Assembly (NCBI RefSeq): GCF_000284315.1
Contig: NC_017094.1
Location: 1,643,486 to 1,707,485, forward strand
DNA length: 64,000 bases
DNA from: Leptospirillum ferrooxidans C2-3
GTDB taxonomy: Bacteria; Nitrospirota; Leptospirillia; Leptospirillales; Leptospirillaceae
Direction of reading: 5' to 3'
The first letter of the stretch is position 1; each line of letters starts with the position of its first letter. A model generated the notes under the pieces. It did not search any database. It was not told where the DNA came from and was given only the letters and a program-made list of their open reading frames with translations. Below, one piece after another: positions 1-52,697 of this stretch. The position numbers and the translations under genes were made by a program.

Positions 1-1464
1 GTCAGAAAAATCCAGAATGATGGCGCACTTTACTTTGGTCCATTTGTTTCCCCTGGAGCTCTCAAGGATACATTAAGGCTCGTAACCCGAACATTTCCCC
101 TGGCTTCCTGCGAAATCCCGCTGGACGGATCGACCGAAAGACCTTGTGTCGAGTACCAGATACAGAGATGTCTCGGACCATGCGCCGGCCTTGTTTCCAT
201 TCCGGACTACCGGAAAGTCGCCAATGAGGTCCGGCTATTTCTCGAGGGAAAAAATGATGACCTGCTCAGGGCCCTTCATCAGGAAATGACAACACTTGCA
301 AAAGATCTGCGATTTGAAGAGGCTGCAAAAATACGGGACAGATTCCTAAACGTTTCAATGATTCAGGAAAAACAAGGCATTTCCTTCGACATTCAACATT
401 CTGTGGATGTCGTGGCAATCGTTCGGGACGTCCCTTTTGTTCTCATAGAGGTTCTTCAGCTTCGGGGAGGATCGGTGAGTGGAAAACGGGAGATTGATTT
501 AAAAAATGGTGAAGAAGCCACCGATTCTGAACTTCTTGGAGCTTTTTTCGATCAATATTATGGCAAGGACCTCTCGACCATACCGGACGAGATTCTCATT
601 GGAAGTCCCCTGTCTGAAGAAGAGCTCATGAGTCTCAGCTGGCTCACCGAAAAGAAAGGTGGGAAAGTAAGAATCCACCATCCACTTCGTGGAGACAGAA
701 AAATCCTTCTGGATCTTTCCATCAAAAATGGTCAGGAAGCACTTATTGAACAGAAAAAACAAAAAGGGGCTTTCAAGGAAGCACTTATTGAACTTGCAGA
801 AATTCTGGGGCTCGAAGCTCCTCCATCCCTGATGGCTTGTGTTGACATATCCAATATAGGGGATGCTTTTCCCGTCGCATCGTACGTTACTTTCCGGGAT
901 GGCAAACCAGAAAGGTCCGGCTATAGGAAATTCAGGATCCAGCTTGAAAAAGGACAGGATGACTTCAAAATGCTCGCACATGTGATGGAACGCCAATTCA
1001 AGGAAAACCCGCTTCCGGATCTCTTGGTCATCGATGGTGGACCGGGACAGCTTGGTGCCTGTGTTGAAAGGCTCCAGGAAATGTCGGTTCTTCCTGTCTC
1101 CCGGGGCGTTGTCTCCATTGCAAAAGAACGCTTCAGAACAGGAAAGCTTGAACGCATTTTCATCCCGGGAATGGAAAACCCGGTCATTCTCCCTCCACAC
1201 AGTAAAGCAACCCATATTCTGGTCCACATGAGAGACGAGGCCCATCGATTTGCCATTACCTACCATCGATCCCTCAGGGAAAACATCCTGAGAGAGTCAA
1301 GACTTCTCAAAATTCCCGGAATCGGACCCGAGCGTGAAAAAAAGTTGCTGAAAGAGTTCCGCTCGTTCAACGCGATCATGGCCGCTCCCGTCGAAGAGAT
1401 CATGCGCGTTGCCGGAGTCTCCCAAAAGGTGGCCCAAGCGATCCTTGATATGGGGAAAGACTGA
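1..1464 (+). CDS. uvrC: UvrABC excinuclease subunit C, 5'-truncated by the window edge
   Basis: UvrC makes the dual incisions in nucleotide excision repair together with UvrB. The frame is open from base 1, so the first ATG at 286 is internal. The translated start carries the end of the GIY-YIG region and the family signature around YFGPF and RCLGPCAG. A UVR motif with FEEAAKIRDR lies near bases 300-350 and contacts UvrB. The RNase H-like endonuclease domain follows, with DISNIGD near 843 and VIDGGPGQLG near 1030, and then a C-terminal helix-hairpin-helix region with IPGIGPEREKKLL. The catalytic tyrosines of the GIY-YIG domain lie outside the window. The next gene starts two bases after the stop, so the two are probably cotranscribed. 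Confidence 0.97.
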   Translation, partial: VRKIQNDGALYFGPFVSPGALKDTLRLVTRTFPLASCEIPLDGSTERPCVEYQIQRCLGPCAGLVSIPDYRKVANEVRLFLEGKNDDLLRALHQEMTTLAKDLRFEEAAKIRDRFLNVSMIQEKQGISFDIQHSVDVVAIVRDVPFVLIEVLQLRGGSVSGKREIDLKNGEEATDSELLGAFFDQYYGKDLSTIPDEILIGSPLSEEELMSLSWLTEKKGGKVRIHHPLRGDRKILLDLSIKNGQEALIEQKKQKGAFKEALIELAEILGLEAPPSLMACVDISNIGDAFPVASYVTFRDGKPERSGYRKFRIQLEKGQDDFKMLAHVMERQFKENPLPDLLVIDGGPGQLGACVERLQEMSVLPVSRGVVSIAKERFRTGKLERIFIPGMENPVILPPHSKATHILVHMRDEAHRFAITYHRSLRENILRESRLLKIPGIGPEREKKLLKEFRSFNAIMAAPVEEIMRVAGVSQKVAQAILDMGKD

Positions 1465-1466
1465 AC

Positions 1467-4400
1467 ATGTTTACAAAACTTCTTCTTGTCGGGTCAGGAC
1501 TGCTCATTGTCAGTCTTGGCACCATCCTGAGAAAATACGTTGACCCTCTTTTTGACGACTACCCGCTTCTTGCGACTCTTGCGCTAGGACTCGTCATACT
1601 GACCTTTATCACAGCGATCATGATCACCAGCACAAACTACGCAAAGCCTTTGCCCGTTCGTTCGAAAAAGAAAAGACCCGGAGACACTCCCCCTCCGCCC
1701 ATCTCATTTTTTCTGGAATGGGGAATCATTGCCTCAATCATGACCATGATAGGGATTCATTTTTCAAGTTCTCAGTCAACCCTCGCATGGGGACTCTGGA
1801 TAACAAGCGGAACAATTTTCATTTCCTGCCTGTTTTTCCTGATGATTCCCTCAACAATCCCCCAACAGCTTCCCGGAGGAGAAGTCGGAACCCAGCAAAA
1901 CATCCTGCATCTTCCTCCTGGAGCCTTTGCATTCTGGACAACCTCCATTTTTACCGGTGTATTTTTCCTTGTGATGGGTGCCGTTCTGAAGCCCTACGCA
2001 ACGGTTGCCTCAATTGCCTCATTTGGTGTCGGAACCGGATGGTGCATTTCTGCCTTGACCTTCGCCATTCTCACAGGAATTCTCCTGGGAGGAATAACGA
2101 TCGTACAGGGCGGGAATAATAAAAAACTTGTTCCTGAAGAAAATTTCACGACATTTCAAGGGAATCAGGAATTCAAGCTCTCCATGATGAAAGCCTATTC
2201 TGACTTTATCAACCATCAGGGTCTATTCAGCGCAGAACACAACGGTATTCTTCTATGGGGGGGAACTCCGGCTGGCAGAAACACCATTGTCCGGTCATTT
2301 GCAGGAGAATCAGGCAGAGCTTTTTTAGAACTCAAACTATCAGGGTTCAACCTCCTCGAAAAGCATATCCTCAAAGAACAGTTACAAAGATTCTTCAGAA
2401 AGATCAAGCCACTGCAACCAGCCGTTCTCCATATAACAGACTATGACGAAATACTCGGGACAGCTGACGGAGCTCTTCCCCCACCCTTCGATGCGATCAG
2501 GGATCTCCTCGAAGAACTTCTTCGCTTGAAAAATACATTGGTCGTCGCAACAGTTCCATCCCTTACAGGGATACCGGATGATTTTAAAACATCTCCTCTG
2601 ATGCATTGGGTTATAGAAGTGCCTTTACCTGACCCATCAAGCAGATCAAGTCTTTTAAAAAGGATTTTACAAATTGAGGCCAAGAAAAAAGAGGCACTGG
2701 CTGGAGATATCTCGTTAATATCAGAAGAAATGGTGAACGGGTACGATCTCAAAAAGCTTGGAGAAATGATGGACGGCTTCAGCATTGAAGTCATCGAGGA
2801 GGTCGTCCAAAACGCTCTCAATACTGCACGAGAACTGAAACGGGCACTTAGGCAACTCGATCTCGATGTGTCGATCCGCAAAAAGAAGCAGGGTATCAAG
2901 GACCCGACAATTGGACCGATGGAAGCCATTCGTGCATTGCTGACCCCGGAAAAGATCCGGTTGACGCTGATTGAAAAAGCCGTTGAGGTGGCACTCCAGA
3001 ACAAAAGAAGGTCAAGGGAGCCGATCATCATCGTTGGGCCGGACCCTATTCTCAGAATGCAGATCATTCAGCTTCTGGCAGAAAGGGAGCTTTTCAGTTT
3101 CAATGCCCTTCTCCAGAAGGAGCTTTCCAGGAACAGTCTTGCTGCGATGAGAAACTTCATCATCCAGTCCAGGAAAAAACGCCCGGCTATCCTCTACATT
3201 GATCCTATCGAGCTGCTATTCCCCCGGGTGCAGCTCTCAAACTTTGGGTACCATGGTGAAATTTACAATCAGAAAGTCATTGAGCTGACCCAGGTCCTTC
3301 AGGACAAACAATACTGGTTTGTCGGAAGCAATCCGCAAATCTCCAGTATCGACCCAATGATTCTCAGAAAGCTGACAAAGGTGATCGATATCAATGAACT
3401 GCAAAGGGAACTCATCGGGCAAATCGAAGAACATGCCCTGGCACAGATCCTCGATGGAGTTCCGTTGGAACAAGTCGATCTCAGCCAGTTTCTAAAAGAA
3501 CCCATTATACCAACAGAAAACCATCCGCAAGAGATGAAGGAGCCGCTCGAGCCACTCCAGAAACATCCCAACATTCAGCTTAATCTTCCCGAGCTTCCGA
3601 CAACATTGATCCCTGGCTATTTTGGAAGAGATGAAGTCCAGGAAGAGATTCTCTCCGTCCTCGACAGCTCCAAGTTGAAGATCCGCACAGGTGGTTCAAA
3701 ACTGCTTGGAAGCTTCTTCTTTATTGGACCCAATCAGACGGGAAAGAAAACGATGGCCCAAGCCATCTCTGAATTTCTCTACAAAAAACCAAAAAGCTTG
3801 ATTTATCGGGACATGAGTCTTTACGAAGAGCTCTATTACTCAGAACAGTTCATTCGCAAACCTGTGCTTGAGCGATCCCCCGTCAATGTACCGGAGGGTT
3901 TGTGGGACATTCTGAAAGAAAATCCCGACCAGTTGCTCTACCTCGACAATATTGAACGAGCCCATCCATCGGTCTGGTCGTCCGTGGAAGATCTGCTCAG
4001 GACCGGTGCCCTGCACTGGCAAAAACAGGAACTTTCACTGGCAAACATGACGATTGTCATGTCGACAACACTCTTTTCCCCTCAGGAAATTGCGGCTCTT
4101 GATGTGGAAGACAGAGCAAGTGAACTGGCAAGGATTGTCCAAAAGAATGACAGGCGTCTTGCATATCTCCCGGTTTTCCAGACACCGTTTCTCTCTCTGG
4201 TAGACAGAATCGTTCCCTTTGTCCCCTATTCCGAAAAGGATCTCAGAAACGCCATTGAGTATGAGATCAATCGTATTCTGAGATCCTTCCTTGAAGGGAA
4301 ATCAGGAAACATTACGATTTCGACCGATATGGGGCTTGTAGACGGCATATTCACTCTGGTGGAACAAAAGCATCCGGATTTTTCAAAAGCCAGAACCATG

Positions 4401-4559
4401 ACACAAAACCTCATGCTCCCCATACTCCACAAACTGGAGGGGAAAATAGCCTCAAATGGTCCCCCCGAAGAAATCGTCCTGTATTGGAACGGCACCAAGA
4501 TCGACATGATCTCCAACACCCATGTACAATCCATTCCCGAACCTCTAAGCGCTGGATAG
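1467..4559 (+). CDS. Membrane-anchored protein with three AAA+ modules (two degenerate)
   Basis: I do not recognise a named family for this 1030-residue protein. Residues 1-215 hold about six hydrophobic segments (near 4-21, 34-56, 83-103, 107-127, 153-174, 180-212). Three AAA+ modules follow. Module 1 (about 255-470) has the P-loop position GGTPAGRNT, where the essential Lys is Asn, and Walker B-like LHITDYDE; its lid region resembles FtsH/Cdc48. Module 2 (about 515-650) has GPDPILRM in place of a P-loop and LYIDPIE as Walker B. Module 3 (about 715-1000) resembles the ClpB/ClpA second ring, with intact GPNQTGKKT (754-762) and YLDNIERAHP. Where ClpB has FLNRIDEIV, this protein has FLSLVDRIV, so the usual arginine finger seems absent. 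It starts two bases after uvrC. The role is unknown; a membrane-tethered remodelling or scaffold protein is an inference. Confidence 0.85.
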   Translation: MFTKLLLVGSGLLIVSLGTILRKYVDPLFDDYPLLATLALGLVILTFITAIMITSTNYAKPLPVRSKKKRPGDTPPPPISFFLEWGIIASIMTMIGIHFSSSQSTLAWGLWITSGTIFISCLFFLMIPSTIPQQLPGGEVGTQQNILHLPPGAFAFWTTSIFTGVFFLVMGAVLKPYATVASIASFGVGTGWCISALTFAILTGILLGGITIVQGGNNKKLVPEENFTTFQGNQEFKLSMMKAYSDFINHQGLFSAEHNGILLWGGTPAGRNTIVRSFAGESGRAFLELKLSGFNLLEKHILKEQLQRFFRKIKPLQPAVLHITDYDEILGTADGALPPPFDAIRDLLEELLRLKNTLVVATVPSLTGIPDDFKTSPLMHWVIEVPLPDPSSRSSLLKRILQIEAKKKEALAGDISLISEEMVNGYDLKKLGEMMDGFSIEVIEEVVQNALNTARELKRALRQLDLDVSIRKKKQGIKDPTIGPMEAIRALLTPEKIRLTLIEKAVEVALQNKRRSREPIIIVGPDPILRMQIIQLLAERELFSFNALLQKELSRNSLAAMRNFIIQSRKKRPAILYIDPIELLFPRVQLSNFGYHGEIYNQKVIELTQVLQDKQYWFVGSNPQISSIDPMILRKLTKVIDINELQRELIGQIEEHALAQILDGVPLEQVDLSQFLKEPIIPTENHPQEMKEPLEPLQKHPNIQLNLPELPTTLIPGYFGRDEVQEEILSVLDSSKLKIRTGGSKLLGSFFFIGPNQTGKKTMAQAISEFLYKKPKSLIYRDMSLYEELYYSEQFIRKPVLERSPVNVPEGLWDILKENPDQLLYLDNIERAHPSVWSSVEDLLRTGALHWQKQELSLANMTIVMSTTLFSPQEIAALDVEDRASELARIVQKNDRRLAYLPVFQTPFLSLVDRIVPFVPYSEKDLRNAIEYEINRILRSFLEGKSGNITISTDMGLVDGIFTLVEQKHPDFSKARTMTQNLMLPILHKLEGKIASNGPPEEIVLYWNGTKIDMISNTHVQSIPEPLSAG

Positions 4560-23241: not shown

Positions 23242-25935
23242 TCACCCTTCGGATTGCATGTTTTCCGGCAAAAGGTTATTGACCAGGGAAAAAAGTTCAA
23301 GATTCAACCTGGATGTGGATTCTCTGGAAAGATCCTCCGGAGAAACCGGAAAACCAAAACGAAGGGTGATTTTCCGGGGCACCGGGAAGCGCTTGTTCCT
23401 GGGGTAAGCCTCGAAACTTCCAATGATCCCAACCGGTATGACGGGACAGGGGAAGGCCCCCAAAAGATGGGCTGTTCCTGGCCGGAACATCTTGATCTTC
23501 CCATCATGGGAGCGGTCGCCTTCGGGAAATACAAGAATCCCCTTCCCTTCTTCCAGCATTCGATAAGAGACCCTGAGAGCGGACGAAGCCTTGTCCGGAT
23601 CAATGGATATCACTCCAAAGGGATCCTTCAAGGGATGGATCCTGGGATGATCAAAAATGGGGGAAAACCCCAAAAGCACCGTTCTCGAAAGGATTTCATC
23701 CGGCAGAGCCGCTGAAATCAGGAAGCCATCCAGATAGCTTCCATGATTGGCGACAATGACAAACGGACCATCCGGCCAAATGGCTTTTTCACCGTTAAAT
23801 GTCTCGTAGATCCAACCTTTATCCGTCTTTTCGAACCGGGGAAGATTGGCTCGAAAAAAAATCGAAGAGGTCCCCCGCAAAAAAAGATGGAACGCCTTGA
23901 GACCGGAAGATAGGCTTTGCCCGTCTGGAGAAAGTGGGCGATGAGGCACCTCTGCCAATTCCTTTTCAGTCAGGGGTGTCTCCCAATAATGACCTTCAAG
24001 CGTCTTTTTTTCTGCCACCTTAAGACCATTTGCCCAAAGAGATACGGCAACCATCAGATCCTTGACCGTCAAAAGATTGTTCAAGAGGGCATCCTCTGGA
24101 ATTCTTGCTCCGAATCCTTCTTCCAGAGCCGAAACCAGCTCAAGTCTTCCAAGAGAATCAAGTCCCAGATCGATTTCCAGGTGGTCTTCCATTCTGACTG
24201 GGCGCTTGATTGTCAAAACCTCATTCAGGATGGTAAAGGTTTTCTGTTCTATCGGATCCACATCCTTCGGAAGGGGTTCCTTTCCCTCATTTTGCTTCTC
24301 AGACTCCAGCTCCTCAACGATTTCAGGGAGAAGATACCGCTTGAGCTTCATCAATCTCGTTCTTGGCAATGGGTCCCTGACAATCGAAAAGCCACCCAAT
24401 CTGCTGTGAGAAGGCAGGGACTGCTGCATCAGGTTAAACATATCCGTGACGATGGGAACAATATTGGTTCGCCCGGAGCGCTGAAAACTTTCAATATCGG
24501 GACGAACAAGCAACCATGGGACTCCCTTTCGAAGGGTTACAGCGATTTCTGAAACCAACGGGTCCGATATCCAGCGAGACTCGATCGCTTCAGGCTGGAT
24601 TTTTTTCCCGTTTGGAAGAACCAGAAGCTCTTTCAAACGTCCGGTCAGGGTCAGGTAACCATCGGACAAATCTCCCCTGTCCCCGGTAGAGAACCATCCA
24701 TCCTGATCGACCAGGGATTCGCGCCTATACCGGTCAAGCCAATAGGATGTTGCCACATTCTCTCCCTTGACCTGTACCTCCCCGGCTTCGGATATCCTTA
24801 CGGAAACACCATCAAGAGGCCTGCCGACAGATCCGATCCGAAAGGCTTCCGGAATATTGAAAGAAACGACCGGGGAGGTTTCGGTCAAGCCATATCCCTC
24901 CAAAAGCATAAGACCAAACCCCATAAAATCTTCAATGATGGCCCGATCAAGAGGGGCTCCACCAGATGATAGTGCCCTCAATGACTGCCCGAATCGGGCA
25001 TGAACCGCAGGAAAAGCCATTTTCCCGATGGAAGGGAATCCCGTCCTGGAGAGATTTCTCACCATTGGAGCCAAAATCTTTTTTGCCACAAACTCCTTGA
25101 TGGTCCCCTTTTGACGGACTCCTTCCATCAGTTTTTGGTGAAAACCCTCCCAAATCGCCGGCACTCCCGGAAATAGGGCGATATTCTGATTGGAAAGACA
25201 CCATGCAATCGTTTTCGGGTGGTTGTCCGGAACAAAAACAGGAACAGCTCCCAGCAGAATCGGAAGATGAAAAAGTCCCATCGCCGGATAGGCGTGATGA
25301 AGAGGCAACATTCCGAGAACTTTGTCCCCTTTTCGGTAAACATGAAGCTTCTCGAAAGAGAAAACATCGGACAGAATGTTTTTGTGTGTCAGAGGGACTC
25401 CCTTTGCATTCCCGGTCGTTCCGGATGTCATCAAAAGAAATGCCACATCATCCGTCTTTCCCTGTACACACCTTTTCCCGAGAGCATTGATAGCCGCATC
25501 TCCTTCACCGGAAGACAGGGGAGACTCAGTGGACACACTGACAACTTCGCCCCCCCACACACCCGTTAGAGATGAGACGGCTTGCGAGATCACCACCATG
25601 CGATCAGCCTCAAAGTTCTTGAGGTGAAAGCCCATTTCGGCAGGAGGCATCAGATGGTCGATCGCCATGACAGTCGCACCCCGTCCAAGGATCGCCATGG
25701 CCGCAAGGATCCAGGTCATTCCGGGTGGCCCCGTCAACCCCACGACCATACCCGGGTCAACCCTGATCTGATCCATCAGTTGCCCCACCCTGGCAGAGGC
25801 CATCCGTCCATCATAAGCCACTGGAAACAGTTGCCCGTCTTTCTGGACAACGTCCACTCCCAAAACGTCTCCGGGCTCTTCCTTTATCCTGCGAAAAAAA
25901 CCTTCGAACAGGGTTTGAGGACGATCCATGGTCAT
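23242..25935 (-). CDS. Acyl-activating enzyme, acyl carrier domain and PlsC acyltransferase in one chain
   Basis: The 897-residue protein has three parts. An AMP-forming ligase (about 1-540) has the MTSGTTGNAKGVP loop near residue 170, GYGLTETSP and a TGDRGD motif. An acyl carrier domain follows, with DLGLDSLGRLEL near residue 594, whose serine should carry phosphopantetheine. A PlsC-type glycerophosphate acyltransferase ends the chain, with NHGSYLD (H-x4-D, near 732) and FPEGDRS near 805. E. coli Aas joins a PlsC and a ligase in the opposite order and has no carrier domain. The likely role is to activate fatty acids and transfer them to lysophospholipid or another acceptor. Overlap with the next gene upstream is four bases (ATGA). 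Confidence 0.88.
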   Translation of the reverse strand: MTMDRPQTLFEGFFRRIKEEPGDVLGVDVVQKDGQLFPVAYDGRMASARVGQLMDQIRVDPGMVVGLTGPPGMTWILAAMAILGRGATVMAIDHLMPPAEMGFHLKNFEADRMVVISQAVSSLTGVWGGEVVSVSTESPLSSGEGDAAINALGKRCVQGKTDDVAFLLMTSGTTGNAKGVPLTHKNILSDVFSFEKLHVYRKGDKVLGMLPLHHAYPAMGLFHLPILLGAVPVFVPDNHPKTIAWCLSNQNIALFPGVPAIWEGFHQKLMEGVRQKGTIKEFVAKKILAPMVRNLSRTGFPSIGKMAFPAVHARFGQSLRALSSGGAPLDRAIIEDFMGFGLMLLEGYGLTETSPVVSFNIPEAFRIGSVGRPLDGVSVRISEAGEVQVKGENVATSYWLDRYRRESLVDQDGWFSTGDRGDLSDGYLTLTGRLKELLVLPNGKKIQPEAIESRWISDPLVSEIAVTLRKGVPWLLVRPDIESFQRSGRTNIVPIVTDMFNLMQQSLPSHSRLGGFSIVRDPLPRTRLMKLKRYLLPEIVEELESEKQNEGKEPLPKDVDPIEQKTFTILNEVLTIKRPVRMEDHLEIDLGLDSLGRLELVSALEEGFGARIPEDALLNNLLTVKDLMVAVSLWANGLKVAEKKTLEGHYWETPLTEKELAEVPHRPLSPDGQSLSSGLKAFHLFLRGTSSIFFRANLPRFEKTDKGWIYETFNGEKAIWPDGPFVIVANHGSYLDGFLISAALPDEILSRTVLLGFSPIFDHPRIHPLKDPFGVISIDPDKASSALRVSYRMLEEGKGILVFPEGDRSHDGKIKMFRPGTAHLLGAFPCPVIPVGIIGSFEAYPRNKRFPVPRKITLRFGFPVSPEDLSRESTSRLNLELFSLVNNLLPENMQSEG

Positions 25936-27443: not shown

Positions 27444-30400
27444 TCAGGGATGTCTTCCATCAAAAAAAGCTTCCACCGCTCTGATCGTGTCGAAGGGAAA
27501 GATGATTTTGAACACTCCCTGATCCTTCGTCAGGCGGGGCGGGAGAAGCCCCCTGAGAAAGAGAAAAGTGCCTCCACCAAAATCCCTCTCATAGGAATAG
27601 CTCGCTCCGATACATGCCTTCATATGGCGATGAAGTGCTACCGTATAAAGAAGAGCCTGAAGAAAGTACCCACCCGAAGTGAGGGCATCACGAAGGCTTT
27701 CTTGTGAATAGTCCATCGGGTTTGGTCCAAGGTCATTTGTCTTGTAATCCACAAAGGCAACCCGTCCTTCATGAAAGAAAAAAAGATCGACCGCTCCTGA
27801 TAGCATTCCGTTCAAATCGGCATAAGCACTCGATTCCAAGCCCCATTTCTCCGGCAAAGGGACCGAAAGATTTCTTAACAACGCGTAAAATCGTGAAAGG
27901 TTGTATTGCTCCATCGGAAAAGAAAATGCCAGTTCCGTGACCTTTTTTTCCCTTGGAATCTCCCCTATTTTCAATGAAGCCCCATCGATCGGAGTTGTTC
28001 TGCAGGCAGCGACCATCTCCAAAGCGTTTTTCAGATCATCCTTTTCCAAAAATCCACGAAGCTCAAGCCGAGACCGGACGAACCCGATCCATTTTTCACC
28101 CTCAGTATCCATATCGGCATTTTCCAAAAGTTCATGGATCAATGTTCCCGTCCTGGCCCCCCTCGCCAAACCTCCCCGTGGAGACTGTTTCTCGAAAAAC
28201 ACATCACGCTCCGGAAAAGGATCTTCGGCAAAAGACTGATCCTCGAAAAAATGCGCCATTGAAGTAAAACTCTCATGAATCCAGCCTCTTCGATCCGGAA
28301 AAAATCCTTTTTCAAACGCAGGCCCAGTCAAAACAGTCTGGTCTTTTAGAATCGTCTCCTGCAAAAACGGTTCCGAGAGCCCCTCGAACATCTCAAGGGG
28401 TTCTGCAACAATTGTCCCGCCCGAAAGATCCTCCGCCATTTTTGCCAGGATCCAGGGCGTCAGAGGGTGATCTCCAGAAAGCTTATCTTCCAGAACCTTT
28501 TCGGGGTTCTCAGGAGAAAACGTTTTCATCATACCCAAAAGCAGCCACAAAAAAGGTGATGGTTCGGAAACAGGAAGAAAACCTCCCTTTTTAGACTGAT
28601 CATTTAAAACAATGCTGACATGGTATCGTGCCCTGGTCAGTGCAACATAAAGGATTCTGAGTTCCTCTGAAAAAGAGTCTTTCCTCGATTCTTCCATTGT
28701 CTCAGGGTCCATTTCATCCTCAAACCAAAGAGAGGGAAGTGAGACAGAAGAAATCGACGGCTCCCTTTTCTTTAATGGAAAAGAAATCTTTCCGGGTTTC
28801 AGAACAAAAGGACAAAAAACCATATCAAACTCAAGCCCCTTGGCTTTGTGAACGGTCATGATCCGGACAGCATTGGCTGCTCCTTCCGCCCTTAAGATCT
28901 CTTCCTCACCGGCAGGAAGTTCGTCCGATCTGCGAATGGCTCGGGAAAAACGCGCAAGAAGCCGCTCCGGAAGGAGATTCTCCTGGGACTCCCACAGATT
29001 CAAGAGCTCAAGAAGATGATTCAGGTTGATCCATTTTCTTTTTCCATCAATGCGTCCTGCAAGATTGTTCTCAATCGACAGGGCGGAAATCATGGATATC
29101 CCCATTCGATAGATCCCCGATGACTCCCATTCCTTTCTGAGAAGGGAAAAGCTCCTGAGTTTCTCCTCTCTGGATGGGAGGTCCGAGCTCAAATTCTTAA
29201 GAGACTGATAGTCCTCACCCACGAGTTCGCTTGTCAACGCGGCAAGAATACCGGAAAAACCTCCCTGGCCAAGGATAGCCAAGAGAATCCACTCAAGCTC
29301 CCTGGCTTCAGATGAATCCAGGACAGAACCATCTTTCTCCACAAGAGAGGGAATACCAAGGAGGGACAATTCTTTTTCAATCTCATGCGCTTCCCTTGTT
29401 TTCCGGACCAGAACGGCAATTTCCGAGGGCAAAACAGGTTTTTCTCCCATCCTGGAGTTTGACTCCGGGCAAAGGATACGGTGAATTTCCCGAGCTGTGG
29501 ATCTGGCAACGAGAACGTCCTCCGGACTTCGGAGTGTGTCGTCGGCCTCCGGATGGGACCCTCCCTTTCGGGGTAAAGACTCCTTGACCAGAATCCGCAT
29601 GGGGGCTATCCGCTTTCCGGAGACCTCCAGAAAGCTGTTTCGAGATGAAGCACAGTAGACCTCTGGAGCCAGAACATGTGGATTCGAAAAGGGAGATGGA
29701 TGATTGGAATAAAGAAAATTCAGGGCTGAAAGGAGGGAAGAGGATTGTCGATACGAGGACAAAAGACCGTATACATGCCCCCCCATTTTCTCTCTGAATC
29801 GAATGTAGCTTTGAAGATCTGCCCCCCTGAAGTGATAAATGGATTGCTTTGGATCACCCACAAAAACCATTGATGGTGTGGGCAAGAGGGAATCTCCCGA
29901 ATCGTTTTTTCCAATTTTCAACAGAAGGGAAATCTGACTGGGATCAGTATCCTGAAATTCATCGACCAGAAAAACCTTAAATTTGGACCGGATTGCCGCA
30001 AGGATGAGCCTGGAATCCGGGGAGTCAGGATTTTCTTTCTCCTCCTTCTCAAGAATTCCGAGAAGGAGCAAAAGAGCATCATCCTGGAAACGGATTTGAG
30101 CGGCTTTCTTATTCTCTTCGAGGATTTTGCCGACATGGTCCATCATTCGCCGGACAAAGGCTTTCGATGCTTCCTCCCATCTTTCACGCAGAAAATCCAT
30201 CGAAGCGGAAAGCTCCACAAGGGCTTTTTTGAGCACGGGATTCTGGGTTTTTTGAGCATCAAGAGCCCCCTTTATCTTGAGGGACTGGTCGCTCTTTGCG
30301 CAGAGGATGTTGAACGGAAAGTCCGCATCTGACAAGAGCTTGGTCCGCTCGGACGAATGATCCTCAACAGATAATTCATTCACAATCTGTTTCTTCTCAA

Positions 30401-31157
30401 AAACCTGAGCAAAGGCTTCTTCAAGAAGGTCTATTCCCGGCCCGGACAATAGCTCCGGATCCGATACCGGCCACCCTCCCTGGGCAAGAGAAATGACTCG
30501 TGAGGTCAAGCGGGAAGGGTCAGGCTTCGGATTTTCAAGGAAATCCCCATTGTAGAAGGCAAGTGTTGTGATCCCCTTTTGAAACCAGTACCTTCTGAGT
30601 GCCGGATGGATCCGCTCAAGGTCATCTCTCAAAAAGCGGGCGGTTGCCTCAAAAACATACGGTTCCGTCCGGGTGACAACCTCCCTTTCTTCTGTTATAC
30701 CCGCAAGATGCATGATCTCAGAGAGCAGCCCCTGGTAGAAGGAATGGATCGTCCGGATCACCACGCGGTCAAAATCCAGTATGGCTCGTTCGATTCTGGA
30801 GGAAGCCTCTTCAGGAGAAACATTCTCCAGAAGATCAAGAAGAGGTGGAATGGGTTGAGGAAAAACCTCTGAACCAGTCGAAGCGCCCCGTCGTGAGAGA
30901 TAGGATCTCAGGCCAAGGAGCTCTTTTCTGATTCTTTTCAGAAGCTCCTGAGTCGCGGCCCTGGTAAAGGTAATCACGGCTATCTTGTCCACCGGGTGGT
31001 TCCAGACGATAATCGCCTTGAGAAACAGGACCGAAAGTAGAGTGGTTTTTCCAGTACCAGCACTTGCCTCCACCAAGTGAAGCCCGCCTTCTTCAATCCC
31101 GAAGGGATCATTTATCACTGGATCAATCGGCATTGATCGTCTTTTTCTTTTTTTCAT
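27444..31157 (-). CDS. recB: Exodeoxyribonuclease V beta subunit RecB
   Basis: RecB is the 3'-5' helicase and nuclease of RecBCD, which resects double-strand breaks. The 1237-residue protein has the UvrD-type helicase with Walker A EASAGTGKT (30-38), VDEFQDTD near 402 and MTVHKAKGLEFD. The C-terminal nuclease has GTLIHELLE, SGAVDLF and FVDYKTND near 1139, so all expected metal and catalytic residues (H, D, D, K) are visible. It overlaps recC by 35 bases. The first Met codon could be at 31157 or, eight residues later, at 31133. Confidence 0.95.
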   Translation of the reverse strand: MKKRKRRSMPIDPVINDPFGIEEGGLHLVEASAGTGKTTLLSVLFLKAIIVWNHPVDKIAVITFTRAATQELLKRIRKELLGLRSYLSRRGASTGSEVFPQPIPPLLDLLENVSPEEASSRIERAILDFDRVVIRTIHSFYQGLLSEIMHLAGITEEREVVTRTEPYVFEATARFLRDDLERIHPALRRYWFQKGITTLAFYNGDFLENPKPDPSRLTSRVISLAQGGWPVSDPELLSGPGIDLLEEAFAQVFEKKQIVNELSVEDHSSERTKLLSDADFPFNILCAKSDQSLKIKGALDAQKTQNPVLKKALVELSASMDFLRERWEEASKAFVRRMMDHVGKILEENKKAAQIRFQDDALLLLLGILEKEEKENPDSPDSRLILAAIRSKFKVFLVDEFQDTDPSQISLLLKIGKNDSGDSLLPTPSMVFVGDPKQSIYHFRGADLQSYIRFREKMGGHVYGLLSSYRQSSSLLSALNFLYSNHPSPFSNPHVLAPEVYCASSRNSFLEVSGKRIAPMRILVKESLPRKGGSHPEADDTLRSPEDVLVARSTAREIHRILCPESNSRMGEKPVLPSEIAVLVRKTREAHEIEKELSLLGIPSLVEKDGSVLDSSEARELEWILLAILGQGGFSGILAALTSELVGEDYQSLKNLSSDLPSREEKLRSFSLLRKEWESSGIYRMGISMISALSIENNLAGRIDGKRKWINLNHLLELLNLWESQENLLPERLLARFSRAIRRSDELPAGEEEILRAEGAANAVRIMTVHKAKGLEFDMVFCPFVLKPGKISFPLKKREPSISSVSLPSLWFEDEMDPETMEESRKDSFSEELRILYVALTRARYHVSIVLNDQSKKGGFLPVSEPSPFLWLLLGMMKTFSPENPEKVLEDKLSGDHPLTPWILAKMAEDLSGGTIVAEPLEMFEGLSEPFLQETILKDQTVLTGPAFEKGFFPDRRGWIHESFTSMAHFFEDQSFAEDPFPERDVFFEKQSPRGGLARGARTGTLIHELLENADMDTEGEKWIGFVRSRLELRGFLEKDDLKNALEMVAACRTTPIDGASLKIGEIPREKKVTELAFSFPMEQYNLSRFYALLRNLSVPLPEKWGLESSAYADLNGMLSGAVDLFFFHEGRVAFVDYKTNDLGPNPMDYSQESLRDALTSGGYFLQALLYTVALHRHMKACIGASYSYERDFGGGTFLFLRGLLPPRLTKDQGVFKIIFPFDTIRAVEAFFDGRHP

Positions 31158-34100
31158 CCACGACAGATCCCAAGATGGGGGAAAAGACTCTCAATGCCAT
31201 TTTCTCTGAAGGCAGAAGTTGCTCAGGGTCAGAACCAGGTAGTCTTGTCCAAGGAGAGGCTTTTGCATATAAAATCATTTCCTCGGGAGAAATATCCGGT
31301 GTTTTTTGTTGAGAGATCCAAATTTTTTCAGCTTTTTCCAATGCCTTTCGACGATCGGCCCCGTTGGGATCACCCCATGGAAATCTCGGATCAAAAGAGA
31401 AATCCGAACTCACTTTCCCCGACTTTGGCTTGGCTTCTTTTTTTCTGAACTTTTTCCAACAGTCTGCATACTCCCAAGAACTTTTCAAAAAGATTGGAAC
31501 AGGAAAAATTTCTCCATAACAGAAAATGGCAAAAAGATCCTGAAGAGCTCTTTTTGCACCCCCTTTAACACAATAGGACTCGCTCCCGGAACCGGAGAGA
31601 GAATAGATCGTTGAAACAACGATCTTGTCCTGAAAACAGAGACTCAGCAACAAATGGTCCACCCATAAGGACAAGATATCTCTTTTGGAATGATAATAGG
31701 GGAAAAACATAACATGATGAACATCATCCCCTTTTAGGAACACCTGCCCATCAAGGCTTCCATGAAAACGGAACGTCTGGCCGATCATCTCCGGAATGCT
31801 CGAAAGAGACAACTCATGAAGAGGAATTTCCGAGCCCGGATATTGAGAAAAGAGAAAATCCTTCTCCTTCCATAACCTAAAAACAGAAGAGGAAAGGCTT
31901 TCAAAAACACTCCCGGAGGCGCTTCCATGCGGCAAAAAACCAAAAGGGGTTAAAAAACTTTTGGGAGGGATCTCTCCGTCGTGTTCATTCAAATAGGAAA
32001 AGATCGTCTTTCCCAGGAACCTCGATTCCATCAGTCCCGGTACAAATGGATCGTTTGAAGCAAGAGAGGAAAGGGTATTCTTGAGGGCACCCCCTCCCCA
32101 GGATGACCAGAAAAATCGGGCAGGATTCCTGAAAAACCCTTTCAGATCATCCAATTCGATTTCCATCGGGCAACATGCGGGAATATCTTCACTCAGATCA
32201 TCGGGGAGAGGTATGGAAGGGAATCCGGTGTTTTGGACAGACTCTTTTTTCTGGGAAAACCCTTCTACCAAAGACCATCTTTTTACCAAATTTTCGCATT
32301 CAGGTTTCATTGCCCTGATCCAATCGATCAGATGTCCAAGAGGAACCGATGGAAGGATCTCGTCGAAGGGCTCCTGTCCTGTCCCAGAGTAACTGATGAA
32401 AAGAGAATCTTTCGCAGACAGGACAGACTCCAGAAACATCCCCTGATCATCCTCCCTTCTCGAATGATCACCTGATCTTGGCGCATTCATCAAAGGATCA
32501 AATGAGACCATTCTGTCTTTCAGGGTAAAAAGCTCTGAATTCATCCCGAGAAGAGCCAGGAATCGGGATGAGATTCCTCTTGATGACACGATGGGAGCAA
32601 AGGTCACGCCATGCCCCATTTTCCCGGGAGAGTCTCCTTTAGCCATTTTCATCTGATGTTCAAGCATTCGGAGAAAACCGTCATATGGAATTTTCAGAGA
32701 AGCCATTCGGCTTGCTTCATTTTCATCATCGACAGGAGATAACATTCTGGAAAAGGATATCAGGGCAGTATAAATCTCGGGCTCTTTGATTCCAAAATCA
32801 TCAGTGAAGAGATTCATAGCCATCCAGGATGCCGTTTCTCCCCAAAAGAATCCGCTTTCTTCATCCGGCAGACGATGGGCCAGATCCAGAACAAGCTTTA
32901 TGAAAACCTGAAACTTTTCAAGAACAGGGGCCACTTCCCAAAGGTCCCCTCCGTCAAAGGGCATCATATCTTCCACAGGAGCGGACTGGGCAAAAGGAAA
33001 CGATAACAGAAGGCGCTCCACACCCCAAAAAAAGGTATTGAGGGCAGGCTCGGGCGAGCCGAATGCTTCTCTCGTCTCCGGAGAAATTCCCCACCAGACA
33101 GGAAGCCGGGAAATCCAACGCTCAATCCTCTCGACTTCCTCTTGATCCAGCCCAAAACGCTCTCTCGAATAGGGGTGATCAAGAAGTGCCATCACCTCAG
33201 AAGCGGAACATTTTCCCCGGGCCACTCTGGCACAATTTTCAAGGTATTTGAAACTTTCCCCACCCCCCCTTTTTCCGACAATCCGATAGGGAATCTCTCC
33301 AACCTCCCCGATTTTTTTCTGAAAAACCGCATCAATGAAGGGAGCAAAAAGTTCAATATCAGACACCATCACCAAAACATCCGACGACATCAGGGAACTG
33401 TCCCGTCTAAAAGACAAAACAATCTCATGATAAAGCGCCTGAACCTCCCCCATGGGAGTTCTTGATACAACAATTCTCAGAGAGTGATCCAAGGGAGCAT
33501 CTGAAAAATCAAGCCCGGACCGGTCATTGATGATTTCAGACTGTATCTTTGAAAGGATGGTTTCCCTATCGGGAATGGAAAAAAACTCTTCAGTCTGACC
33601 GGACCTGGAAAGACAGAGATCCCTCATCCTGACAAATTGGGCACCTAGTGCCCTAGTCAATGGATTGACTGCAGCTCCCTGGGCATCTCCCGGAAGCTGA
33701 TCAGAGAATCCTGGCAAAAGAAAAATGGGTGTGGCCTGCCATTGATAGAGAACAACATCTGTCAGGATGGAGAGATCTTTCAGAAAATCCAGAAAAGAAG
33801 GTGGGAGGAGAGAGTGCCCTATGACATGTACCGGGGTTTTCAAAAAAGACTTCCCCTTAAGAGACTCCGGTGATGCTCTCACAAGCCTTGAAAATCGTTC
33901 GAGGAGAGAAACCCTGTGAAGTGGAGTTTTCTGGATCAGGCTTCTCCAAAGATCGGACCAGGGATCTTGATGATGTTGGTCTTTTTCCCAAATAAGGATC
34001 CAGTCAGGCCTGTAGATCAATATCCGGTCAAAAATCTCTGCCAGTGTTATGGCCAGTTCCCATTGGGACGGAATGTCCCCAGGAAGAGGGATTCCATCTG

Positions 34101-34428
34101 GCAAGCGAATCGCGTTGCCGGATTCTTCTCTTTTCGAAAAAAGCTCCATCAGAGAAAACGACATGGATATTTTCGACAATGGATTATTGGGAGGTGCGTC
34201 AGGAAAGCATTCGGAGAGAACGCTCCAGAGAAAATTTCCGGGGGGAGTGATTGTGATCCCACTAAAAATACCCAGTTCTTTTGCCAGGAGAGTTTGGAGA
34301 TGAAAAGACTTCAATGAGGTATCTACAAGAATTTTTTCAGACTCAAATGGAGAGCGCAGGCGTTTGATTTTCCGGGCTAACTCTTTTCCCAGCCTTTCAG
34401 GATCGTTTCCCGAAACAACCCACAACAT
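31123..34428 (-). CDS. recC: Exodeoxyribonuclease V gamma subunit RecC
   Basis: RecC is the inactive helicase-like subunit that recognises Chi and splits the DNA strands. Identity rests on the conserved central block: VTFAPIVSSRGI, LLGMNSELF, SGDHSRREDDQGMFLE and FISYSGTG, all in the E. coli RecC order. Length (1101) fits. GGAG lies nine bases before the ATG. The gene is followed by recB in an overlapping pair. No recD is found on either side, unlike the usual recC-ptr-recB-recD order. Confidence 0.92.
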   Translation of the reverse strand: MLWVVSGNDPERLGKELARKIKRLRSPFESEKILVDTSLKSFHLQTLLAKELGIFSGITITPPGNFLWSVLSECFPDAPPNNPLSKISMSFSLMELFSKREESGNAIRLPDGIPLPGDIPSQWELAITLAEIFDRILIYRPDWILIWEKDQHHQDPWSDLWRSLIQKTPLHRVSLLERFSRLVRASPESLKGKSFLKTPVHVIGHSLLPPSFLDFLKDLSILTDVVLYQWQATPIFLLPGFSDQLPGDAQGAAVNPLTRALGAQFVRMRDLCLSRSGQTEEFFSIPDRETILSKIQSEIINDRSGLDFSDAPLDHSLRIVVSRTPMGEVQALYHEIVLSFRRDSSLMSSDVLVMVSDIELFAPFIDAVFQKKIGEVGEIPYRIVGKRGGGESFKYLENCARVARGKCSASEVMALLDHPYSRERFGLDQEEVERIERWISRLPVWWGISPETREAFGSPEPALNTFFWGVERLLLSFPFAQSAPVEDMMPFDGGDLWEVAPVLEKFQVFIKLVLDLAHRLPDEESGFFWGETASWMAMNLFTDDFGIKEPEIYTALISFSRMLSPVDDENEASRMASLKIPYDGFLRMLEHQMKMAKGDSPGKMGHGVTFAPIVSSRGISSRFLALLGMNSELFTLKDRMVSFDPLMNAPRSGDHSRREDDQGMFLESVLSAKDSLFISYSGTGQEPFDEILPSVPLGHLIDWIRAMKPECENLVKRWSLVEGFSQKKESVQNTGFPSIPLPDDLSEDIPACCPMEIELDDLKGFFRNPARFFWSSWGGGALKNTLSSLASNDPFVPGLMESRFLGKTIFSYLNEHDGEIPPKSFLTPFGFLPHGSASGSVFESLSSSVFRLWKEKDFLFSQYPGSEIPLHELSLSSIPEMIGQTFRFHGSLDGQVFLKGDDVHHVMFFPYYHSKRDILSLWVDHLLLSLCFQDKIVVSTIYSLSGSGSESYCVKGGAKRALQDLFAIFCYGEIFPVPIFLKSSWEYADCWKKFRKKEAKPKSGKVSSDFSFDPRFPWGDPNGADRRKALEKAEKIWISQQKTPDISPEEMILYAKASPWTRLPGSDPEQLLPSEKMALRVFSPILGSVVDEKKKKTINAD

Positions 34429-46545: not shown

Positions 46546-47532
46546 ATGAAGCATCTATTCTTCTCCCATCTCCCAAGAGTGCTTTTTGCGGCAAAGTTAA
46601 TGTTTGTCACGGGTGTTTCTTATCTTTTGGCTGACAGTGTGGATCAAGCAGTCAAAAACAGCATCCTTCCACCCATGACCATCAAGGACAATAACCAATC
46701 TGCCAACATTGAAACGTTCCATGCACCAACAGCCTCCGAGCTGGGCCTTATTGCCTCAAGGAATCCATTCAGCCCTGACCTGAGGGGAAAAAGCTATGCC
46801 AACATCCTTGCCGATCTCTACCCCCAAGCGGGAAGAGGATCGGACTCTGCCCCCAGGGATGCTGAAGTTGTCGCTCTCGGAAACTGGATGAACGGTAAGG
46901 TTCCCATTCTTGAACCAAAGATGATCAAGCTAAGACTTGTCGGCACCGTTCTGGCAGGAAAGGCAACATCAGGCGCCGTTATCGATTCACTGGATCCGGA
47001 AAAACAAAAGTTTTACCGAATCCATGACGTTATTATTCCCGGGAAAATATCGCTCGTCGCTGTAAGAAAAGAGTATGTCGTCTTGCAGGTCGGAAAAGGG
47101 TATGGAATTCTGAAAGCCCATTACGATCAGGAGGACGATGCCGGTCAGGTCCTTCCGGACAAGGGAACGGCCTCTGTCAGTGCCCATGGCATTCACAAGA
47201 TCGATGACCACCACTGGCTTGTCGAAGCAAGAGCCATACAGTTTGCGACAAAAAACCTGAGTTCCCTTCTCTTGCAGGCCAGAGCCGTACCGGATTTTAC
47301 AGGTGGCCATCCCGATGGGTTCCGGATGGTCAACATACAGTCAGGGAGCCTTTTTCAGGAGCTTGGTCTCGCACAGGGAGATGTCATACGTTCTATCAAC
47401 GGTCTCTCGATGAATGATCCACAGAACTTCATGAAAGCACTGTCGACTCTTCAAAGTGCAACCAATGTCCAGATCAATCTATTGCGAAATGGGGCTCCCC
47501 AGACTTTTGACTATCAGATACAGTCGGAATGA
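46546..47532 (+). CDS. gspC: Type II secretion protein GspC
   Basis: GspC links the inner-membrane platform to the secretin. The 328-residue protein has an N-terminal membrane segment (about 10-30), a periplasmic homology region (LRLVGTVLAGKATSGAVI, FYRIHDVI) and a C-terminal PDZ domain (GFRMVNIQSGSLFQELGLAQGDVIRSING). It heads the secretion operon. The next gene, the secretin, begins 33 bases later. Confidence 0.88.
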   Translation: MKHLFFSHLPRVLFAAKLMFVTGVSYLLADSVDQAVKNSILPPMTIKDNNQSANIETFHAPTASELGLIASRNPFSPDLRGKSYANILADLYPQAGRGSDSAPRDAEVVALGNWMNGKVPILEPKMIKLRLVGTVLAGKATSGAVIDSLDPEKQKFYRIHDVIIPGKISLVAVRKEYVVLQVGKGYGILKAHYDQEDDAGQVLPDKGTASVSAHGIHKIDDHHWLVEARAIQFATKNLSSLLLQARAVPDFTGGHPDGFRMVNIQSGSLFQELGLAQGDVIRSINGLSMNDPQNFMKALSTLQSATNVQINLLRNGAPQTFDYQIQSE

Positions 47533-47565
47533 TCCTTTTTTCATTGTGATAAGGAATAAATAAAG

Positions 47566-49239
47566 ATGCATTTTCTCATCCCGGAAATAAAACGATCAAA
47601 ACTCGCATCACTCCTTTTGCTGATTCTTTTTCTTTCAGACGGAAGCCGTCTGCAAGCCTCCACCAATCCACTGAACCTGGCGACACAGGAAAAGACAAAA
47701 CCTCCCAAAGACCCTTTGATCATCAAACCCTCTGCCCCTACTCCGCTTGACATGGAAAACTCCGTTTCCCTGAACTTCCGAAACGTAGATATATCTGTCC
47801 TCGTTCGATTCATGAGCAATCTCATGAATAAGAACATTGTCATGGACGAGCGGGTCAAGGGGAAAATCTCCATTCTCTCCCCTAACAGGATCAGCATTGA
47901 CCGGGCATTCCAGATCTTCAAGCAATCCCTGCGGATGAAAGGCTTCGAGGCCGTTACCAAAAAAGGCATGATTTTTATTGTTCCTGCCAATCAAGCCCCG
48001 CAAGACAGGGAACTCTTTCTTTTCACCCTCGAGAACACCAGTGCCAAATCCATCGCAAAAACCATCAACAGCATCCTTTCTAAAGGCTTCCAGCCTCCGC
48101 CTGTTGGAGCGGTCTCTTCCGGAGGACTGATCGGAATGGTCCAGATTGTTCCGGACAGTCCATCCAATAGCCTGATCATTTCAGCCACACCCCACGACTA
48201 TCACCTGATCAAGGCTCTTTTGCGCAATCTGGACCATCCTCCCGGAGAGGTTTACGTCAAGGCTTCCCTGATCGAGATCTCAACAGACAAACTTCAGAAT
48301 ATCCAGGTCAATCTTTTGGGAGCTGTTACCGGAGCCAATGGATCAGGCGTAGTGGGAGGCACAAACTACGGGATGGTGGGTGGAACGGTCAACGGAGCGG
48401 TCGGAAACAGTCTGACAGGAACCACAGGAACAACGACTGCCAGCGGTGCTGCCGGAGCAGCATCCTACCTCTCGGGACTCACCGGACTTGTTGCGGGAGT
48501 GCTGACCGGTGGAACGTTTACCTATGGGGGAGTGAGCTACCCGTCCATTGGATCACTGCTCAATGCTCTTCAAACAGATACAGACGTCAGGACCCTTTCC
48601 ACTCCGGAAATTCTGGCCACAGACTCGCAAAAGGCCAAGATTACAGTTGGTGAGGACGTTCCTTTTATTACCGGACAAAGCCAGACGGTTGGCGGAAACG
48701 TCATGACAATGATCCAGCGCCAGAATGTGGGTATAACCCTTGAAATCACCCCACATATCCTTGCCCACAACAGAGTTCGCCTTCAACTCAAGCAAACGAT
48801 ATCGGCCCTTACAAATGCCTCCCAGCTGATCGGAACAATCGCCGTTGGTCCGACCACAACCAAACGGGCCACTACGACAACACTGACGATTGCTTCCGGC
48901 CAAACGATTGTGATCGGTGGACTGATCTCGTCTGTCGTCACCAAAAACAAGTCCACGATCCCGTGGCTTGGAGACATTCCCGTCCTGGGGTACCTGTTTT
49001 CAAACACCACCAATGAAAAGCAACGGGATGATCTCCTGATCTTTCTCACTCCCTATGTCATCAAGTCCAATTATTCCTATGCCAAGATCGATCTGGGCGC
49101 ACCGTCCATCCTGAAGAGATACTCCCGCCACCAGCATCTGATCGAAACATTAACCCCCAAGATTAAACCTGGAACGGTATCCGACGATACTTTTCTGGAA
49201 ACGGTCAATCTTCCAGGGGAAAAAGGAACTCCGGAGTGA
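47566..49239 (+). CDS. gspD: Type II secretion secretin GspD, short form
   Basis: GspD forms the outer-membrane channel. After a signal sequence, an N0 domain (about 62-145, SVSLNFRNVDISVLVRFMS) is followed by only one further N-type domain (about 146-222), then the secretin core (VYVKASLIEIS; VPFITGQSQTVGG; VIGGLISSVVTKNKSTIPWLGDIPVLGYLF). A Gly/Thr-rich insertion lies near 245-315. At 557 residues it is about 100 shorter than the usual form with N0-N1-N2-N3. No lipobox is seen, so targeting may not need a pilotin. Confidence 0.93.
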   Translation: MHFLIPEIKRSKLASLLLLILFLSDGSRLQASTNPLNLATQEKTKPPKDPLIIKPSAPTPLDMENSVSLNFRNVDISVLVRFMSNLMNKNIVMDERVKGKISILSPNRISIDRAFQIFKQSLRMKGFEAVTKKGMIFIVPANQAPQDRELFLFTLENTSAKSIAKTINSILSKGFQPPPVGAVSSGGLIGMVQIVPDSPSNSLIISATPHDYHLIKALLRNLDHPPGEVYVKASLIEISTDKLQNIQVNLLGAVTGANGSGVVGGTNYGMVGGTVNGAVGNSLTGTTGTTTASGAAGAASYLSGLTGLVAGVLTGGTFTYGGVSYPSIGSLLNALQTDTDVRTLSTPEILATDSQKAKITVGEDVPFITGQSQTVGGNVMTMIQRQNVGITLEITPHILAHNRVRLQLKQTISALTNASQLIGTIAVGPTTTKRATTTTLTIASGQTIVIGGLISSVVTKNKSTIPWLGDIPVLGYLFSNTTNEKQRDDLLIFLTPYVIKSNYSYAKIDLGAPSILKRYSRHQHLIETLTPKIKPGTVSDDTFLETVNLPGEKGTPE

Positions 49240-49245
49240 TGAACC

Positions 49246-50964
49246 ATGGCTGGAGATAACCTGAAGGAGCAGATCCTCTCATTGATGGTTCCTTCAATCG
49301 ATGGCTCAAACTTGAAAAACCAGCTCTCCTTGGCCGAATGGCTGGGCCCCCAGGGAGAAAATCAGGATGAGTTGTGGAAAAAATGGGCAAACATCCAAAA
49401 CTATCCATACCTCACAGAGTTTAGCCTGGACTCCATGGAGCCAGAACTATTGGCGAATCTCCCCATCGGATTTCTCAAGCAACATCTCCTCTTGCCAACT
49501 CATCACATCGAACAGAAACGGACAATCCAACTCATTCTTGGCTCACCCAAGAGTTTTTTTGCTATTGAGCCGGTGAAAACCATCCTGAGAGAACAGGATC
49601 CGGATATACGCTTTGATTTTGCACTCATGTCACCATCAAAACTTCTGACATTGATCAACAACGCCTACGAACGATATACACAAAGCCAGACATCGGAGGT
49701 TTTATCAGGAGTCTCCACTGAAACGGAAGAAATGAAGGATCTTTCGTCCATTCAGGAGACCATCGACCTTCTTGACGCCAAGGATGATGCACCAATGATC
49801 CGGTTGGCCAACTCCATTCTGGCCCAATCCATTCGCCAAAAGGCCTCTGATATCCACATCGAACCCTTTGAGAAGGATCTCATGGTTCGGTATCGAGTCG
49901 ACGGAGTCCTCTTCAACGTGCTTTCCATACCGCAAAAGATTCAGTCCGGGCTGGTTTCAAGATTCAAGTTGATGGCCAATTTGAACATTGCAGAAAAAAG
50001 ACTTCCCCAGGATGGAAGAATCAGGATCAAGACCGGTGGACGGGATATTGACATAAGAGTTTCTACGCTCCCGGTCAGACATGGAGAACGTGTTGTCCTT
50101 CGTATTCTGGAACAGGGCACATTACTTCTGCCACTTTCATCAATCGGATTTGATGACCACGATCTTTCAACACTGGCAGGGCTCATTCGCCTGACACACG
50201 GAATCATTTTGGTAACAGGGCCCACGGGGGCGGGAAAAACAACCACTCTGTACGCCATCTTAAACACGATCAACAGCCCTGATAAAAACATCATCACGAT
50301 TGAAGACCCCGTCGAATATCAGCTTCAGGGAATAGGACAAATCCAGGTCAACCCCAAAATTCAGCTCACTTTTGCAACAGGTCTCCGATCCATTCTCCGT
50401 CAGGATCCCGACGTCATCCTGATTGGAGAGATCCGGGATGGAGAAACCGCCGAAATCGCCATTCAGGCCTCTTTGACCGGCCATCTCGTTTTCTCAACAC
50501 TCCACACCAATGACGCCCCCTCTGCCATTACCCGACTGATAGACATGGGTACTGAACCTTTTCTGATTTCAACAAGTGTCAAGGCTGTCATAGCACAGAG
50601 ACTCGTGAGGAAAATCTGCCCGGACTGTCGGGAAAGCTACATTCCTGAAGGTATAGAACTTTATCGAATAGGCATCACACAGGACCAGCTGCCTCCGGAA
50701 GGACTCTTTAGGGGAAAAGGATGTGTTCGCTGCATGAATACCGGTTATCGCGGCAGGCAGGGGATTTACGAGCTACTGATCATCGACCCAGAAATTGCCC
50801 AGCTGATCAATCTTAAAACAGACACTGCCACAATCAGGAACCGAGCAAAAGAAAAAGGAATGACCACGCTTCTTGAGGATGGAAAACGAAAAATCCTTCT
50901 GGGCATCACGACGACTGAAGAGGTTCTGAGAGTCGCACTGTCTGAAGTCTCCGTTGAGCAATAA
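49246..50964 (+). CDS. gspE: Type II secretion ATPase GspE
   Basis: GspE is the cytoplasmic ATPase that powers pseudopilus assembly. The 572-residue protein has an N-terminal GspE/PilB domain, then the ATPase core with Walker A GPTGAGKTT near 325-333, the Asp box IEDPVEYQL, Walker B ILIGEIRDGETAE and the His box LHTNDAP. A C-terminal zinc-binding region has CPDC and CVRC. Six bases separate it from gspD. Confidence 0.96.
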   Translation: MAGDNLKEQILSLMVPSIDGSNLKNQLSLAEWLGPQGENQDELWKKWANIQNYPYLTEFSLDSMEPELLANLPIGFLKQHLLLPTHHIEQKRTIQLILGSPKSFFAIEPVKTILREQDPDIRFDFALMSPSKLLTLINNAYERYTQSQTSEVLSGVSTETEEMKDLSSIQETIDLLDAKDDAPMIRLANSILAQSIRQKASDIHIEPFEKDLMVRYRVDGVLFNVLSIPQKIQSGLVSRFKLMANLNIAEKRLPQDGRIRIKTGGRDIDIRVSTLPVRHGERVVLRILEQGTLLLPLSSIGFDDHDLSTLAGLIRLTHGIILVTGPTGAGKTTTLYAILNTINSPDKNIITIEDPVEYQLQGIGQIQVNPKIQLTFATGLRSILRQDPDVILIGEIRDGETAEIAIQASLTGHLVFSTLHTNDAPSAITRLIDMGTEPFLISTSVKAVIAQRLVRKICPDCRESYIPEGIELYRIGITQDQLPPEGLFRGKGCVRCMNTGYRGRQGIYELLIIDPEIAQLINLKTDTATIRNRAKEKGMTTLLEDGKRKILLGITTTEEVLRVALSEVSVEQ

Positions 50965-50991
50965 ACGATGAACATGGTCAGGCAATAAAAC

Positions 50992-52197: not shown

Positions 52198-52238
52198 TAA
52201 ACAACGAACAAAACACAAGATCGACACGAGGAAAAAAC

Positions 52239-52697
52239 ATGTCTGTCCTTACCATCAAGAAAAGAAACCTTTATTCGGACTCAGGGTTTACGCTGATCGA
52301 GATCATGGTGGTTATCTTCATCATTGCCCTTCTCGCTGCGCTTGTTGTTCCCAAAATCATCGGCCGTACCGAGGAAGCCAAAAGGGTGGCGGCAAAGGCA
52401 CAGATCAGGGAAATCGAAAACGCCCTGAGCCTTTACCATCTGGACAACGGGACATACCCTTCAACAGAACAGACGCTTGATGCACTGATCAAAAAGCCAT
52501 CGACACCGCCCATACCGACAAACTATAAAGCGGGAGGATATATCTCAAAGATACCGAAGGATCCCTGGGGTCGTCCCTATATCTACCTCTCCCCGGGAAA
52601 TCATGGAGACTTTGACCTCTATTCCTACGGAGCCGACGGTGCCAAGGGAGGCAAGGGCAACAACGCCGATATCGAATCCTGGGCCCTTGAAAACTGA
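52239..52697 (+). CDS. gspG: Major pseudopilin GspG
   Basis: GspG is the main subunit of the pseudopilus. A 16-residue leader ends in SDSG and is followed by FTLIEIMVVIFIIALLAALVV-type hydrophobic residues, with Glu at +5 after the prepilin-peptidase site. The C-terminal part has DPWGRPYIYLSPG and the calcium-site region DLYSYGADG. The prepilin peptidase gene is not in this window. The stop overlaps the next start by one base. Confidence 0.96.
   Translation: MSVLTIKKRNLYSDSGFTLIEIMVVIFIIALLAALVVPKIIGRTEEAKRVAAKAQIREIENALSLYHLDNGTYPSTEQTLDALIKKPSTPPIPTNYKAGGYISKIPKDPWGRPYIYLSPGNHGDFDLYSYGADGAKGGKGNNADIESWALEN

Follow-up and report, generated by a model that had tools for sequence, protein, structure and literature searches.

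The membrane protein X of Leptospirillum ferrooxidans C2-3 is, in the reading towards which we lean, an AAA+ pseudoenzyme peculiar to its lineage, anchored in the membrane and serving as a scaffold or adaptor that possibly lends an arginine finger to a partner. It is taken to be a pseudoenzyme because the residues for hydrolysis and the pore loops are gone from its three AAA+ modules, yet the gene is under purifying selection and is universal in its family. Almost all AAA+ proteins are interpreted as motors driven by ATP. X lies close to one end of the window, the 64,000-nucleotide stretch of DNA analysed here, in a genome that is a single contig of 2.56 Mb. It is a real gene, as the initial annotation had it, with an ATG start, a reading frame for 1030 amino acids and 20 homologues (Table 1).

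Table 1. Coordinates in the window of gene X, its parts and the gene upstream of it
Feature	Position	Strand	Basis
uvrC, 3′ part, directly upstream of X	1..1464	+	Pfam domain search and neighbourhood comparison
Gene X, 1030-aa membrane protein with three AAA+ modules	1467..4559	+	ORF and 20 homologues
Six predicted transmembrane helices, residues 1-222	1467..2132	+	AlphaFold and hydropathy
Module 1, residues 223-478, FtsH/Cdc48-like AAA fold, catalytically dead	2133..2900	+	Profile, structure match, motif table
Degenerate P-loop of module 1, GGTPAGRNT	2259..2285	+	Alignment of homologues
Module 2, residues 479-672, Cdc48-like AAA core	2901..3482	+	Profile, AlphaFold, conservation
Degenerate P-loop of module 2, GPDPILRM	3036..3059	+	R at Lys position, 19/19
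Residues 577-609, Walker B Asp D579, then nearly invariant block	3195..3293	+	Alignment, conservation test
Residues 629-634, DPMILR, second region of homology with arginine finger R634	3351..3368	+	19/19
Module 3, residues 715-1010, ClpB-D2-like AAA+ fold and C-terminal small domain	3609..4496	+	Pfam, profile, structure
P-loop of module 3, GPNQTGKKT	3726..3752	+	GxxxxGK kept, S/T after K lost
Walker B of module 3, LYLDNIERAHP	3936..3968	+	Catalytic Glu to Asn, 19/19

Three AAA+ modules behind a membrane anchor

The six hydrophobic segments of the initial annotation are borne out by AlphaFold, which places helices at residues 2-20, 33-59, 79-99, 104-125, 153-174 and 179-209, and hydropathy agrees. 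The loop of residues 60-78 is charged, with six lysines or arginines, which fits an N-in/C-in topology, the two termini lying in the cytoplasm. No similar membrane domain was found at significant E outside the Leptospirillum family. The single candidate for such a domain elsewhere in the phylum (E 0.008) lies in a frame with stops and was taken as a chance match.

A full-length AlphaFold model built on an alignment of 19 sequences (mean pLDDT 75.2, pTM 0.37) has six long N-terminal helices followed by three alpha/beta units of AAA type, and a separate model was made of modules 1 and 2 (mean pLDDT 75.7, pTM 0.47); confidence in these models is modest. The AAA+ core fold is present in each module, with Pfam AAA and AAA_2 matches in all 19 sequences, so that the membrane-bound triple array proposed earlier is supported both by predicted structure and by the 20 homologues. 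Profile searches match module 1 to p97 and FtsH, and FtsH is also its top structural match (Z 17.3, 231 aligned residues, rmsd 3.8), with a chain of the Chlamydomonas Ycf2-FtsHi complex matching as well (Z 16.0). In profile searches module 2 comes closest to archaeal and eukaryotic Cdc48; after its core both AlphaFold models show a single helix (642-662) instead of the full lid that would be expected. The model of modules 1 and 2 aligns as a tandem with Pex1/6, Drg1 and p97/Cdc48 over about 360-390 residues with a large rmsd that probably reflects different hinge angles. Module 3 was rightly likened to ClpB D2, as its Pfam AAA_2 match (E 3e-13), its profile matches to ClpB and ClpC, and structural comparison with ClpB NBD2 (Z 21.4, 274 residues, rmsd 3.4) all agree. 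An NCBIfam search of X gave Clp and Cdc48 matches only, far under the curated cut-offs.

The catalytic motifs of the three modules in the 19 sequences were tabulated against five AAA+ proteins from the same genome, FtsH and an Mpa-like ATPase for modules 1 and 2 and the D2 modules of ClpB, ClpC and ClpV for module 3, all five of which are intact at the sites listed. (The intact Mpa/ARC-like proteasomal ATPase, at 638000-641000 of the genome, is thus encoded alongside FtsH, ClpB, ClpC and a ClpV-like protein.) In module 1 the position of the Walker A lysine is occupied by R, Q or C, that of the Walker B aspartate by T, P, V or E with D in one sequence only, and that of the Walker B glutamate by D or N; sensor 1 and both arginines of the second region of homology are lost. 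In module 2 the lysine is replaced by arginine and Walker B reads DP throughout, D579 being kept and the catalytic glutamate replaced by proline, and sensor 1 is lost. Loss of the P-loop lysine from both modules, noticed first in the single sequence, is therefore true of all the homologues aligned, none of which has a normal P-loop there; of the Walker B acidic residues said to be kept in the two modules, D579 stands and the others do not. No module combines the K and S/T of GxxxxGK[ST] with the Walker B glutamate in any of the 19 sequences. The aromatic-hydrophobic-glycine pore loop 1 is missing from modules 1 and 2 and the GYVG loop from module 3. With the catalytic residues lost from each, all three sites look unable, on the evidence of their motifs, to hydrolyse ATP by the usual mechanism, and with the pore loops missing, threading of substrate through them in the usual way is unlikely.

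Module 3 has retained the most. Its Walker A lysine is kept in 18 of 19 sequences (the homologue L043 has R) and its Walker B aspartate in 19, so weak or unusual ATP use may persist, and binding of nucleotide without hydrolysis is possible. Its P-loop, described earlier as intact, is not: the residue after the lysine is K, R, L, M or I and never S or T, and the T of GPNQTGKKT, a position held by E in 12 of the 19, comes one residue too late. The catalytic glutamate is asparagine in every sequence, giving DN, and sensor 1 Asn, sensor 2 Arg, the arginine finger (whose absence had been noted) and the GYVG loop are lost from all.

One alternative is that module 3 holds nucleotide stably and that X acts as an ATP/ADP sensor or a nucleotide-locked membrane ring. 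Change of the glutamate to asparagine with the Walker A lysine and Walker B aspartate kept is of the kind used to trap ATP in AAA+ proteins, and dynein AAA2 and NSF D2 are precedents for stable binding without hydrolysis. Binding should, however, be weaker with the Mg-coordinating hydroxyl and sensors 1 and 2 gone, and L043 departs even at the lysine; this alternative is considered unlikely. It is less likely again that module 3 is a working ATPase with modules 1 and 2 regulating it. Dynein and midasin have several AAA modules per chain, some of them without ATP hydrolysis, and the initial annotation had envisaged such a division of labour around one working site, for which the GxxxxGK and aspartate just described and a complete ClpB-D2 fold, small domain included, can be adduced. 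It is unsupported because glutamate, P-loop hydroxyl, both sensors, finger and pore loop have gone from module 3 in every full-length homologue, and in one of them the lysine too. X also differs from dynein and midasin in having three modules rather than six, of two AAA+ subtypes, and no intact site.

Module 2, with its dead ATP site, is the best-conserved part of X, and it keeps an arginine finger, R634, in all 19 sequences, a feature that had been overlooked. This combination is of the clamp-loader delta-prime type, delta-prime being a protein that lends its arginine finger in trans. Within the block of residues 577-609 is the nearly invariant motif VQLSNxxYHGExYNQKV, and 20 of the 30 residues at 580-609 are invariant in the family compared with a maximum of 17 per 30-residue window in 2000 shuffles that ignore the shared ancestry of the sequences. 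The block occupies the place of pore loop 2 and helix alpha3 in AAA proteins. AlphaFold pLDDT falls below 50 at the loop 588-596, as would be expected if a contact were missing from a model of the monomer.

Distribution, locus and selection

X has matches along its length in each of the 20 further genomes of the Leptospirillum family, acid-mine iron oxidisers, at 33-84% identity in the alignment, two of the homologues being split at contig ends. None of 40 genomes searched elsewhere in the phylum yielded the whole of X; the matches there mostly involve Clp-type proteins aligned to module 3. A family profile recovered it, at E 1e-30, in 21 of 21 Leptospirillum-family genomes versus 0 of 274 others of the phylum, and a GTDB scan with one genome per species, which depends on two patterns of conserved peptides, likewise returned the Leptospirillum family only. 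A phage origin was considered, and a scan of viral contigs gave no relative. Searches of the literature on Leptospirillum AAA proteins, on degenerate or pseudo AAA+ membrane proteins and on bacterial proteins with three AAA modules gave no description of the family. It is not mentioned in the portions consulted of a survey of acidophile proteostasis (PMC10490939) or of a multi-omics paper on L. ferriphilum (PMC5772234).

The gene order is uvrC, X, thiC, directly adjoining. Wherever both genes are visible in the family X is directly 3′ of uvrC; downstream, thiC and metH adjoin it only in the nearer relatives. The gap between uvrC and X is 2 nucleotides in L. ferrooxidans C2-3, stop and start overlap in 16 of 18 relatives, and in all 18 complete relatives the spacing is either 2 nucleotides or an overlap of 1 or 4, for which reason the two are probably translated together. 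Such proximity is what would commend a part for X in DNA repair, as a membrane tether for UvrC or the excision machinery. Unrelated genes can be packed just as tightly in an operon, however, and the genes upstream, named by reading their sequences, encode a prepilin-peptidase-like protein, PhoH, a membrane HD-hydrolase, YbeY, FtsY and AroE, a mixed housekeeping cluster that does not point to any single function. Pfam finds no DNA-binding domain in X or its homologues, and a role in repair is quite improbable.

X is under strong purifying selection. Omega, estimated between three close relatives, comes to 0.06-0.07 over the whole gene and to 0.01-0.02 in module 2, against 0.04-0.06 for uvrC and 0.02 for thiC, values that are rough because dS is close to saturation. 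The loss of three sets of catalytic motifs might suggest a decaying gene on its way to becoming a pseudogene, but this reading is ruled out by the selection and distribution data, as the frame is open in all 21 genomes apart from the two splits at contig ends, omega is about 0.07 and the module that has no P-loop lysine in any sequence is the best conserved.

Known systems and a possible role

FtsH resembles X in that a membrane anchor, here at the N-terminus as in FtsH, precedes a classic AAA module. X has six membrane helices, whereas FtsH usually has one or two, and it has two further AAA modules; neither X nor its homologues have a Pfam match to Peptidase_M41. The plant FtsHi proteins, inactive members of that family that work inside a hetero-oligomeric AAA+ complex, have lost the protease but reportedly retain, intact, a domain that matters for activity (PMC8197885), in contrast to X with no working Walker motifs. 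Module 3 shares fold and sequence relationship with the D2 of ClpB/Hsp100, but of the catalytic residues only the Walker A lysine and Walker B aspartate are left, the GYVG loop is gone, and X has no Clp N domain by Pfam. Modules 1 and 2 have the tandem fold of Cdc48/p97, in which both AAA modules are active; in X both sites are dead, there is no match to the Cdc48 N domain, module 2 is without most of the lid, and the protein is membrane-anchored. EccC/YukBA of type VII secretion likewise sits in a bacterial membrane and has at least three ATPase modules, of which some are degenerate. Its modules are of the FtsK/SpoIIIE type, however, whereas those of X are AAA and AAA_2, with no Pfam match to FtsK_SpoIIIE.

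In the pseudoenzyme reading, X would act without ATP hydrolysis of its own as a structural scaffold or adaptor on the cytoplasmic side of the inner membrane. Through the 577-609 block and R634 it may contact either itself or a partner. An active AAA+ protein of the cell is the most plausible candidate, and R634 could be lent to it in trans in the style of delta-prime; module 3 may still bind nucleotide without turnover. A more specific version, which we regard as doubtful, makes X the non-hydrolysing half of a membrane AAA+ machine, its module 2 finger reaching into the active partner's site and so switching the partner or positioning it at the inner membrane.

The keeping of three stripped modules in every genome of the family suggests that the AAA+ fold is used here as a scaffold or docking surface, and cautions that the automatic label 'AAA family ATPase' may misstate what a protein does. 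X offers a clear starting point in the search for a membrane AAA+ partnership peculiar to the Leptospirillum family.

Other features of the window

On the minus strand, 23242-25935 encodes an 897-amino acid protein with an AMP-binding domain, a carrier-protein domain and an acyltransferase, and 27444-34428 holds adjacent genes for a UvrD-type helicase (1237 amino acids) and a RecC-like protein (1101 amino acids), which are probably a RecBC-type exonuclease V. A type II secretion (gsp) cluster at 46546-55636 includes genes for a PDZ/GspC-like protein, the secretin GspD, GspE, GspF and GspG, after which come two genes without a Pfam match and then a GspM-like gene. Shortly after the secretion genes, at 58030-59445, is a gene with an MbnB/TglH/ChrH domain, of an enzyme family that modifies RiPP precursors.
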